DNA of 42,544 bases, taken from positions 7,294 to 49,837 of the forward strand of contig MFJM01000012.1 of assembly GCA_001779205.1 (NCBI GenBank). Direction: 5' to 3'. Of this stretch, positions 2,271 through 6,390 are shown in pieces (position 1 is the stretch's first letter; each line of letters opens with the position of its first letter). This DNA comes from Candidatus Gottesmanbacteria bacterium RIFCSPHIGHO2_02_FULL_39_14. GTDB lineage: Bacteria; Patescibacteriota; Microgenomatia; 2-02-FULL-39-11. The notes beneath the pieces were generated by a model. It was not told where the DNA came from and did no database searches. It worked only from the letters and a program-made list of their open reading frames with translations. Made by a program: the position numbers and the translations under genes.

Positions 2271-2485
2271 AAATTATCACCACCTTTCAAAAAACCCTTT
2301 CCTTACTCTTAATAAATAGAGCGTCAGAAAGGGCAGTTAAACGTTATATTTTAATAAATTAACCTATAGTTGTCAATCCTATAGTGTTGGCTGGCTATTC
2401 CTTTTCTCAAAATAAGAAAACGAACAGACATACAAGTATGGTATACTTTTGACAAACTTTGACAAACTTTGCTATATTTATACAT

Positions 2486-2773
2486 ATGAGTACAGTGAAT
2501 ATCTCTATCCCTCAAGAACAGCTTAATTTTATCGATAAACTTGTTAACAATTATGGTTTTGCCAACCGCAGTGAATTTATCAGAGCTCTGATCCGTTTAT
2601 TGGCGTTTAAACCTGAACTAATTAATCAAACTGCTCTTTTCCCCTTCTCCGTTCCATCTTCAAGGTCAAGGGTAAAAATTATCGCTGATTTCAGAAAATC
2701 AGGAAAATATTCCAAATCTTTTATAAAAGATTTGGAAGAAGGCTTAAAAACAAGCGACTTTTTTACGGATTAA
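2486..2773 (+). CDS. Ribbon-helix-helix antitoxin (CopG/ParD-like)
   Basis: MSTVNISIPQEQLNFIDKLVNNYGFANRSEFIRALIRLL is typical RHH; ATG at 2486 is a better start than the track start at 2459. Confidence 0.8.
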   Translation: MSTVNISIPQEQLNFIDKLVNNYGFANRSEFIRALIRLLAFKPELINQTALFPFSVPSSRSRVKIIADFRKSGKYSKSFIKDLEEGLKTSDFFTD

Positions 2774-2774
2774 A

Positions 2775-3029
2775 GTGATTACTATCTTGCCTCTAAATGA
2801 TCCACTCAAAAAGAAACTGCAAAAACACTCATTAAAGAAAAAATTCGATAAAAAATTAACATATTTATCCTCAAACCCGACACATCCAGGATTGCATGTT
2901 GAACTTCTCGAGCCTAAAAATTATGGTGTTTACAGTTTCCGCATTGACCGGAAATTCCAGGCATTATTTATTTTCAGACCAGATCTATCGGCAATCGAAA
3001 TTCTGAATATTACAATTCACTATCAATAA
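2775..3029 (+). CDS. RelE/ParE/YafQ-like toxin
   Basis: 84 aa, KFDKKLTYLSSNPTHPGLHVELLEPKNYGVYSFRIDRKFQALFIF pattern of the RelE/ParE fold; 1 nt after the RHH gene. Confidence 0.8.
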   Translation: MITILPLNDPLKKKLQKHSLKKKFDKKLTYLSSNPTHPGLHVELLEPKNYGVYSFRIDRKFQALFIFRPDLSAIEILNITIHYQ

Positions 3030-3033
3030 CTTT

Positions 3034-3104
3034 TCAAGGTGCGAATAGTCCTTTTAAATGTCAAAGCCTTTGGCTTTGGCACTTAAAAGGTACCAGAAAT
3101 GCAG
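3034..3104 (+). repeat. Structured repeat R1: TCAAGGTGCGAA - 19-bp hairpin - TACCAGAAATGCAG
   Basis: CCTTTTAAATGTCAAAGCC (3050-3068) pairs with GGCTTTGGCACTTAAAAGG (3072-3090) with a single mismatch; flanking blocks recur at 3684-3805. Confidence 0.8.
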
Positions 3105-3141
3105 AAAAATTAATTATGAGATCTTATGCTAGACTGGACTT

Positions 3142-3652: not shown

Positions 3653-3683
3653 CTCATTAGTGTACTTCAATCATATTCAGTTG

Positions 3684-3805
3684 TCAAGGTGCGAAACCCC
3701 TTTTAAATGTCAAACGAATCGGTTGTAAGTTGTAGGTTATAAGTTGTAAGTTACTGCCTACAAACTTCTAATAGGTTTGGCATTTAAAAGGTACCAGAAA
3801 TGCAG
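3684..3805 (+). repeat. Structured repeat R2, longer copy of R1 with an expanded loop
   Basis: Same TCAAGGTGCGAA and TACCAGAAATGCAG blocks; stem CCTTTTAAATGTCAAAC (3699-3715) / GTTTGGCATTTAAAAGG (3775-3791); loop has degenerate GTTGTAAGTTGTAGGTTATAAGTTGTAAGTT repeats. Confidence 0.8.
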
Positions 3806-3892
3806 AAAAAATTAGTTGAGGACTCGAAACGAGCCAGCGAATCACCGCGGAGCGGTGAAAACTGACAGGTAGAGCCTGTATACTAATTTTTT
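3806..3892. other. Multibranch structured element (outer stem enclosing three hairpins)
   Basis: AAAAAATTAGT (3806-3816)/ACTAATTTTTT (3882-3892) encloses CTCGaaaCGAG, CACCGCggaGCGGTG and CAGGtagagCCTG. Confidence 0.6.
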
Positions 3893-4166
3893 CTTTGTAC
3901 CTTTGGCAGATGTGAGCTTCCTGCTCACTTTGACTTTTGACCCCATTGGTCATAAGTCCAAGCTCTCTGCGGAGCTTTTTGCAGATGTCAACCATAAGGC
4001 TGACTTTAGAACAGAGCCAACTGCATGTGGCTATTTTTTTCCTACCCGATGGGCGAGGTCCGTCTCACGCAAAACGCGTGTATTACGGCGGACCCCGTCC
4101 AAACGAGCAGAGATTACCGCTCATAGCCACCTCCTTTTTCAGGTGGGGGTGGTGATTGAGAGCGGG

Positions 4167-5447
4167 TTACGGATCGACGACTTCGCAAGGCCTCAGACGA
4201 GCTGCCTCCCCTCCACCAGAAAATCCGGGGGGGAAAGAGGTCTTGGGGTCGCTCTGGCCAGGGCGCAGTTCTCCAGGTTCAGCCCGATAGCCATCCTGCC
4301 AGCAGGAAGAGGTATTCGTAATACTAAAGAACGTGCCAGCCGTGAATGGCCGGACGTCCCAACAATTCTCTTCGTCGCTACAGGGGGTAACACTGGCGTT
4401 GGACAGGTGGAAAGTCGCCACGACCTCGTCAACTGTGGTCCATCCAGACGTAAAGGTGGCTGGATCGGGAGTAGGCATTCCGTTTTGGCACGGCCTGATG
4501 ACGATCTCTTCGACCAGGATGTTTTGGCTATTGGGGGGTACGCTGATTTTAGGTGCGTCCTCTTCCTGCTCGTACCCTGGTCGAACCTCGCCTCCTATCC
4601 ACCGGTATCCGTCCATCCAGCAATTGGTCGGATTACTCGCATTGAAGGGCACACCTTTCACTTTGGAGCGAAAGATAAAACAGTGCCCCTCGCCGCAAGC
4701 CCAGAGCTCGGCATTTTCCAGGTCAACCGAGAACATCAGGGCGGCCTCCTCGCCGGAGGTGGGGAACCCTTCGATCGAAGACTCTATCTCCTGGTCCAAA
4801 GCCAGAGGGCCAGGCGTCGGCGCAGCTGCCGCAGCAGAGCAGGATCGAATCGTTACCCCACTGTCAACCAGGATTTCCTCGCTGTGGGGCGGAATTCCGC
4901 TCAGTTCAGGCCGATTGTAGTTTCCAGGCCGGAGTTCACCTGCGTTGTGGCGGAATCCCTCTAGCCAACAATCCAGCGGGTTCGAGATGGTGAAGGGAGA
5001 AATCTTTACTTCCCAACACTCGGGTTCAACCCCTCCCTGCCCATCGGGGCAAGGCTGGATATCACCTTCGCGAACTCCAACCAGTTTGAAGGCTCTGATG
5101 ACCTCACTGGCCGTTGCGGGAAAGCCTGTGTAAACGACCTGGGTTTCAGCGAGCGGCATCGGGGTTCCTTCGGCAGGAACCTCATCGGTCACGATTACGG
5201 TCTGGACGACTTCCTGGGTTTCAATCACGATCTCCTTCCCACCAGGAACCTCGACCGTCTTGATAACTTCTTGCGTTACGATCACTGTCCGCTCAGGACC
5301 TGGAACATTGACCGTCTTGGTCGGTCCCAGAATCCAGAGGGCGAAAAGCAAACCAAGGACGATCAGCCCGAGGAGAATCAATCCGCCTCTGCGAACCCAC
5401 GGTCTTTGAAAAAAATTCTGCTGTTGTGCAACAGGGGGAGTAGTCAT
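4167..5447 (-). CDS. Membrane-anchored protein with three ~90-aa tandem Cys-containing repeats, GC-rich and probably horizontally acquired
   Basis: 426 aa; N-terminal TM (GGLILLGLIVLGLLFALWILG); three repeats with CWLEGFRHNAGELRPG / CWMDGYRWIGGEVRPG / CWQDGYRAEPGELRPG; clearly higher GC than the flanks. Confidence 0.75.
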   Translation of the reverse strand: MTTPPVAQQQNFFQRPWVRRGGLILLGLIVLGLLFALWILGPTKTVNVPGPERTVIVTQEVIKTVEVPGGKEIVIETQEVVQTVIVTDEVPAEGTPMPLAETQVVYTGFPATASEVIRAFKLVGVREGDIQPCPDGQGGVEPECWEVKISPFTISNPLDCWLEGFRHNAGELRPGNYNRPELSGIPPHSEEILVDSGVTIRSCSAAAAAPTPGPLALDQEIESSIEGFPTSGEEAALMFSVDLENAELWACGEGHCFIFRSKVKGVPFNASNPTNCWMDGYRWIGGEVRPGYEQEEDAPKISVPPNSQNILVEEIVIRPCQNGMPTPDPATFTSGWTTVDEVVATFHLSNASVTPCSDEENCWDVRPFTAGTFFSITNTSSCWQDGYRAEPGELRPGQSDPKTSFPPGFSGGGEAARLRPCEVVDP

Positions 5448-5833
5448 CTCACACCTCCAGTGGAGATTTCTTATCTTGATAGTTCGGATTCTCCAAAGCT
5501 CTCCAGAAGCTTTAGAACATCTTGCTTATCCAGATCCGGCTTATAGGTGAGTGCATAAAAAAGCCACTCGCCGCTGCCCGAAACCCTGCCTTTCTCAGGG
5601 CCGCCTTTTTTAAGGCTAATTGATCCAGATACCGGAGAAGCTGCGATTAAGAATTTTCCGACTACTTCACCTCGGAGGTGTATTTTTTTAATCGCAAATT
5701 TTCCGGTACCTAAAGATCAACGCCTGTGAGAAAGGAAATTTTGTTTTAGGTACAAAAGAATATATTTGTCCTCCTACGCTCAAATTCGCCTCGTGGTTTA
5801 CATCCACGCAGTCGAATGTTCGCTTCGGAAGGA

Positions 5834-5867
5834 CAGTTGCGAGTAATCTGATCCTTCAGATCAGAAA
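5834..5867. other. Strong stem-loop in the leader of the GC-rich island
   Basis: GCGAGT..TCTGATC cttca GATCAGA.ACTCGC. Confidence 0.65.
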
Positions 5868-5886
5868 CTCGCTACTGCATTTCTGG

Positions 5887-5899
5887 TTGTTAAAGAGCA
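5887..5899 (-). promoter_or_regulatory. boxA-like antitermination motif
   Basis: Minus strand TGCTCTTTAACAA, matching the rrn boxA consensus TGCTCTTTAACA; directly upstream of CCAGAAATGCAG and the structured leader. Confidence 0.45.
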
Positions 5900-6036: not shown

Positions 6037-6390
6037 ATGATCCTAAAAGTAGATGATTATCAAAAAATTCCCGTAATACTTTCAAAAAATACCTGGTATA
6101 AAAAACTATTGGATCCAATTTTTGGACATCCTGAAGTTAAACCGTTCCTTCCTGAAATAAAAGAAACAATAATCAATCCTCAATATATCTTCCGAAGTAT
6201 TAGAGATCCAAGATCAAAGTTATTTATTACCGTAATTAAAACCGAAAAATTCGCTTCTTATTTCCTGGTCGTTGTGATAAAATATGTAAAAGATGATGAT
6301 TCCACTACTGGATATATTTCAACAGTGATGATCAATCGCAAATTACCAAAATATAGTACTAAATTATGGGAAAGAAAAATTTTAACCTAA
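6037..6390 (+). CDS. BECR/PBECR-like putative nuclease toxin
   Basis: PQYIFRSIRDPRSKLFITVIK...YFLVVVIKYVKDDDSTTGYISTVMI resembles the phage Barnase-EndoU-ColicinE5/D-RelE-like (PBECR) pattern; followed by an overlapping DUF2283-like gene. Confidence 0.5.
   Translation: MILKVDDYQKIPVILSKNTWYKKLLDPIFGHPEVKPFLPEIKETIINPQYIFRSIRDPRSKLFITVIKTEKFASYFLVVVIKYVKDDDSTTGYISTVMINRKLPKYSTKLWERKILT

Follow-up and report, generated by a model that had tools for sequence, protein, structure and literature searches.

A GC-rich island of Candidatus Gottesmanbacteria as a probable member of a family of rRNA-style mRNA units

Introduction

Antitermination of the rRNA type and a closing leader-trailer helix are regarded as features of rRNA synthesis. 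Other large structured RNAs include OLE, GOLLD, ROOL, HEARO and the group I and group II introns, the latter two with an internal ORF. In Escherichia coli, boxA is both necessary and sufficient for recruiting the rrn antitermination complex, and the leader-trailer helix, for which more than 17 bp are needed, is essential for 30S formation (PMC10250234). One model sees boxA as an anchor that holds the 5' strand near the polymerase until the trailer emerges (PMC10250234). In the open literature, a scope outside which subscription papers mostly fall, we found no description of mRNAs that combine boxA and a closing helix.

Here we follow up a GC-rich island within a window of 42,544 nucleotides from Candidatus Gottesmanbacteria bacterium RIFCSPHIGHO2_02_FULL_39_14 (contig MFJM01000012.1; genome of 1.44 Mb in 72 contigs). 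With a rough probability of 0.6, we propose that it belongs to a family of mRNA units of rRNA style that Ca. Gottesmanbacteria share with related Microgenomates; such units would combine boxA antitermination and closure by a terminal helix with protection and/or release by RNase III.

Results

The first-pass annotation of the window had described a GC-rich island on the minus strand with a boxA, dense stem-loops around a 426-aa ORF and complementary ends of 12 nt. Every sequence it quoted is present at its position, GC content is 50-58% inside the island against about 30-37% in the flanks, and the ends proved to be slightly longer, namely 13 nt at 100% complementarity (3793-3805 and 5875-5887) with 2069 nt between them. 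Absent from that annotation were a strong Shine-Dalgarno sequence, a long hairpin (3699-3791) and a repeat of the trailer, which lies at 3050-3109. From 5' to 3' along the minus strand, the parts are:

6056-6085, minus strand: possible sigma-70-type promoter, TTGAAA - 18 nt - GATAAT; weak (10 of 12 matches in a consensus scan that finds as many such sites in the region as in shuffles)
5887-5899, minus strand: boxA, TGCTCTTTAACAA; its core also precedes SSU and LSU rRNA genes of the family
5875-5887, minus strand: 5' arm, ACCAGAAATGCAG, immediately after boxA
5839-5872, minus strand: 5' UTR hairpin, GCGAGTttCTGATC/GATCAGattACTCGC; the stem sequence differs in the matching hairpin of G005
5767-5837, minus strand: 5' UTR stem-loop, TGTCCTtCC/GGAGGACA
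5627-5711, minus strand: long 5' UTR stem (27 nt, 81%) that encloses the next feature
5668-5680, minus strand: palindrome CACCTCCGAGGTG, a fragment similar to a dispersed palindromic repeat
5452-5458, minus strand: strong Shine-Dalgarno sequence, GGAGGTG
4167-5447, minus strand: ORF of 426 aa with N-terminal TM segment; GC 57%, GC3 0.60
3806-4166, minus strand: structured 3' UTR, mean z -3.5; its final stretch shares 82% identity with G005 over 131 nt
3793-3805, minus strand: 3' arm, CTGCATTTCTGGT, complement of the 5' arm
3699-3791, minus strand: hairpin that follows the 3' arm at once and has arms of 17 nt (94%)
3677-3692, minus strand: GCACCTTGACAACTGA, ambiguous, boxA-like or equally a -35 box (TTGACA...TACACT)
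3050-3109, minus strand: second trailer copy, 3' arm and compact hairpin, then GCACCTTGAAAAG

The trailer copies (3050-3109 and 3699-3810) lie 701 bp apart and have an opposite-strand 146-aa ORF and a GC-rich hairpin between them. Near the unit, at 2459-3029, there is a toxin-antitoxin-like pair consisting of an RHH antitoxin and a weak HigB-like toxin match.

Both untranslated regions are long (about 430 nt at the 5' and about 360 nt at the 3' end) and fold, relative to shuffled sequence, at a mean z of about -3.5, as opposed to -0.8 in the near-neutral ORF and -0.3 in the 400 nt upstream. UTRs of most units in the family reach z values of -3.5 to -5.6 against shuffled sequence, and the hairpin 3' of the 3' arm averages -3.6 (below -2 in 8 of 12) compared with -0.4 in controls. 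Rfam searches gave no family match in the window island or in other units, and no rRNA match in the window; low-scoring hits to RAGATH-22 and snoRNA in the window island were rejected, their scores being far below gathering.

The 426-aa protein combines its N-terminal TM segment with a V/T-rich stalk and a Cys/Trp domain that is repeated three times, and the predicted product is a membrane-anchored protein. It has no match in Pfam, PHROGs or PDB sequences, and a protein look-up in genome contigs found no relative; a weak relative from G091 aligns with the N-terminal 37 residues alone, and AlphaFold2, run on a two-sequence alignment, returned an unusable model (mean pLDDT 48.5). Most units carry a single GC-rich ORF with a strong Shine-Dalgarno sequence, and most of these ORFs start with a signal, lipoprotein or TM-like segment as judged from sequence; nearly all unit-encoded proteins look exported or membrane-anchored. 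Proteins of different units are unrelated, except for those of G000 (the window's genome) and G005, which share 39% identity over 107 aa.

This lack of relatedness, along with a GC3 of 0.56-0.73 in unit ORFs versus 0.23-0.41 in the window's neighbouring genes, would suit a scenario in which GC-rich genes were imported from high-GC bacteria and are expressed from ordinary operons, and the RNA features are incidental. Since the ORFs are unstructured beyond their own composition, RNA structure cannot account for their high GC3, which is left unexplained by an rRNA-style mRNA model and for which import and selection may both be candidates. Import does not, however, explain boxA, covarying arms (see below), fixed spacing or structured UTRs; as an account of the whole arrangement it is therefore highly unlikely to our minds, although the coding cassettes may still have come from such import.

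Homologous islands, which the first-pass annotation had wished to see sought elsewhere, exist in other genomes. In G005, G010 and G014, a GC-rich island sits in a neighbourhood that matches the window's, next to genes for a ChbG-like deacetylase and glycosyltransferases (names read from sequence, as is a HicB-like toxin-antitoxin-type pair near the G010 unit at L038 6545-6861). Each of the three has a boxA, an arm, an ORF and then the perfect complement of the arm. The 5' arm is ACCAGAAATGCAG in G000 and G005, ACTAGGACGAGAA in G010 and ATAGGTATATCAGGTT in G014, and the exact complements follow 1.25-2.07 kb downstream in all four. Outside the arms, similarity is considerable: the 5' UTRs of G005 and G010 are 78% identical over 248 nt despite unrelated arms, the leaders of G010 and G014 are 77% identical over 197 nt, and the 3' ends of G000 and G005 are 82% identical over 131 nt. 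Because homologous UTRs surround unrelated ORFs, it is the frame of leader, boxA and UTRs that is kept, and the arms and the coding cassette that are exchanged. Such exchange, if real, may take place through homologous recombination within conserved flanking sequence.

Nine further genomes of the family contain 33 copies of the boxA core GCWCTTTRACAA, compared with 5 occurrences of a reversed control pattern. Exact complementary arms of 12 bp or more were found at 11 of 35 oriented family boxA sites (10 units and one 16S), at 1.24% of 1372 random positions in the same loci and at none of 9 boxA sites from four families elsewhere in the class. Exact arms were used here because gapped local alignment is too permissive. 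At a minimum arm length of 11 bp, the Ca. Gottesmanbacteria family has eleven boxA-led mRNA units, spread over eight genomes. Their order is leader, boxA, 5' arm, structured 5' UTR, Shine-Dalgarno sequence, usually one ORF, structured 3' UTR, 3' arm and, usually, a hairpin. The 5' arm starts directly after boxA or overlaps its last bases: a search of offsets +8 to +39, counted from the first boxA base, put its start at +9 to +14 in all eleven units. Arms measure 11-16 bp and enclose loops of 0.7-2.1 kb.

A 20-nt motif of boxA plus arm, allowing up to 2 mismatches in 382 genomes of the class, retrieved only G000, G005 and three further hits, the latter of which appear to be chance matches within coding sequence. 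Since arms differ between units, this search was poor while the boxA core alone worked. Outside the window's family, L169 (another Microgenomates family) has a unit with a 12-bp arm and L171, from yet another family of the class, has an arm with one bulge (read by eye), so the boxA-arm arrangement extends beyond the family with at least one further unit. Right after the L169 unit and ahead of a glycosyltransferase gene, L169 2777-2810 holds a hammerhead-like ribozyme core, CTGATGAGTCCAAAAGGACGAA, that scores 17.8 bits with Rfam RF00008, under the gathering score. Other boxA-led GC-rich islands have no clean exact arm at boxA (G000:C70, G007:C4, G006:C129, G004:C89); in G000:C70 the arms TCGCACAAGACAA/TTGTCTTGTGCGA, read by eye, lie farther in. 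At G007:C4 (about 106-117 kb, L087/L089), GC-rich genes that encode TM and lipoprotein-like proteins form a tandem run, in which the boxA-like sequences GCWCTTTAACAGTTGAATGATAACGG or GCACCTTAAAA lead several of the genes; the run adjoins a gene for a TrwB/TraD-like coupling ATPase.

Could the complementary ends of the window have arisen by chance or through a chimeric assembly? Somewhere in 42 kb, an inverted repeat of 12-13 bp could indeed arise. Islands at corresponding places in separate assemblies of other species, with similar neighbourhoods, argue against a chimera, and the enrichment of arms over random positions plus the recurrence of covarying arm pairs refute both options, whose probability we consider practically nil.

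The eleven units have ten distinct arm pairs, each of them internally complementary, and pairing of at least 10 bp between the 5' and 3' arms of different units is confined to the homologous G000/G005 pair. Arm pairs that differ and yet stay complementary amount to covariation, and therefore speak for an RNA helix rather than transposon ends. This bears on the two alternatives that the first-pass annotation had offered, a large and structured RNA that contains an ORF, organised like pre-rRNA, or a mobile element with inverted ends. The former gains support from recurrence in several genera, compensatory change in the arms and family rRNA genes with the same boxA and similar arms. As for the latter, a mobile element with inverted terminal repeats would fit the 13-bp perfect inverted ends, a content that varies among related genomes, the duplicated trailer at 3050-3109 and the palindromic repeats in UTRs. 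Related elements should share their ends, however, and units with homologous UTRs (G005, G010) have unrelated arms; moreover, boxA is found at a constant distance outside the arms, the unit keeps its position from genus to genus, and it contains no transposase or integrase. The island's sole long minus-strand ORF, without a Pfam or PHROG match, gives no sign of a transposase, with which non-autonomous elements remain compatible, and no empty site was found, the anchor neighbour gene being absent from other family genomes. All in all, we hold a mobile element to be very improbable indeed, and that half of the earlier proposal is not supported.

The GC-rich palindrome CACCTCGGANGGTGGCGAAGCAACGACTTCGACTCCTCCGAGGTG, some 45 nt long, is inserted within open frames of 398-818 aa on six Microgenomates contigs (L049, L050, L052, L057, L059, L062), where the reading frame varies, as well as in the 5' UTRs of L005 and L038, with a fragment at 5668-5680 of the window. 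Viral contigs yielded no copy. Rickettsia palindromic elements behave in much the same way. A conserved 5' UTR motif that had been considered as a signature of the units was rejected, as it is this dispersed palindrome.

The boxA of the units also leads rRNA genes of the family, both SSU (L123, L131, L137, L083, L080) and LSU (L127, L133, L147); this comparison uses family relatives, the window's own assembly being without a 16S gene. Complementary arms, for instance CAAAATGTGGTAGGA/TCCTACCACATTTTG, are present in SSU leaders of the family as well, where they reach 15 bp; compared with the mRNA units, these 16S arms begin farther from boxA. All seven family genomes tested (7/7), the window's included, have genes for NusB and RNase III. 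The nusB gene adjoins that for RNase III at G000:C53, G004:C36, G005:C13, G007:C16, G009:C13, G010:C2 and G014:C35. Inside the LSU rRNA gene of G003, a Group I intron (RF00028) occupies L127 1806-1995.

Discussion

Our best reading of these sequences is that the units may be mRNAs which are transcribed, and possibly processed, like pre-rRNA and which would serve as swappable expression slots for exported proteins. Mechanistically, boxA would act as it does in rrn operons: it would recruit the NusB/S10 antitermination complex and so let RNA polymerase pass through a long structured message without premature termination. The 5' arm, anchored by boxA and kept near the polymerase, would pair with the 3' arm as this emerges and thereby close the message co-transcriptionally in a terminal helix. 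Together with the flanking hairpin, that helix may protect the mRNA and/or be cut by RNase III to give a discrete message, the outcome being that one surface protein is expressed at a high and lasting level, while leader, boxA and UTRs would stay and arms and coding cassette be swapped between lineages. What the sequences show is the anatomy of the units, their recurrence, covarying arms, a signal in common with rRNA genes and the genes for NusB and RNase III; antitermination, helix formation in vivo, cleavage and high expression we infer.

The main weakness of this parallel is that the arms are shorter than the helix required in E. coli (above). Lengths of 11-16 bp are modest both for the closure of loops of 0.7-2.1 kb and for a classical RNase III site. 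Arm distance in 16S leaders and the boxA islands without a clean exact arm at boxA also count against an rRNA-style model. One may ask if boxA antitermination alone matters, with arms and hairpins that merely stabilise the mRNA or terminate transcription and without any rRNA-like late pairing or RNase III processing. The shortness of the arms would agree with this, hairpins beside mRNA 3' ends are common, and boxA is known upstream of non-rRNA transcripts, namely CRISPR arrays, from what PMC7862264 relates of them. What such a scenario leaves aside is that the arms start right at boxA in every unit, that they covary and that they are joined to the boxA of rRNA leaders. We regard it as unlikely, albeit with an appreciable chance of being right.

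Returning to the rRNA-style reading, a broader proposal is that Microgenomates may have extended the pathway of rRNA transcription and maturation to multi-copy messages for often-exchanged exported proteins, a new mRNA class with boxA antitermination, a boxA-anchored closing helix and perhaps RNase III release that would provide rRNA-type expression slots for the cell surface. To this we would give even odds. If true, the pre-rRNA pathway can act as a general expression system, the units are many natural variants in which boxA-anchored late pairing could be tested apart from ribosome assembly, and they point to specific exported proteins that are possibly abundant in ultra-small bacteria.

How do the units compare with described systems? 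With large structured RNAs and introns, the window unit shares size and many stems and, with introns, an internal ORF, but it differs from them in that Rfam has no match and that no reverse transcriptase or endonuclease domain was found in its ORF. A second comparison is with boxA-led CRISPR arrays (Stringer et al., in PMC7862264), whose transcripts, as that source presents them, are likewise non-rRNA, bear a boxA and stay untranslated over long stretches; a closing helix is not part of that presentation, whereas the units encode protein and their arms covary. There is a further likeness to rrn pre-rRNA (Warner et al. 2023, PMC10250234): the units have a boxA of the same core sequence, their 5' arm downstream of boxA complements a trailer after the product, the transcript is highly structured, and the genomes that bear them encode NusB and RNase III. 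Unlike pre-rRNA, their product is an mRNA with Shine-Dalgarno sequence and ORF, the arms have 11-16 bp rather than 25-40 bp, a hairpin usually comes after the 3' arm, and the 5' arm starts directly at boxA, the tightest form of the anchoring logic. We rate the units as a known architecture of transcription and processing, described for rRNA, that is here found on a new class of RNA, protein-coding messages.
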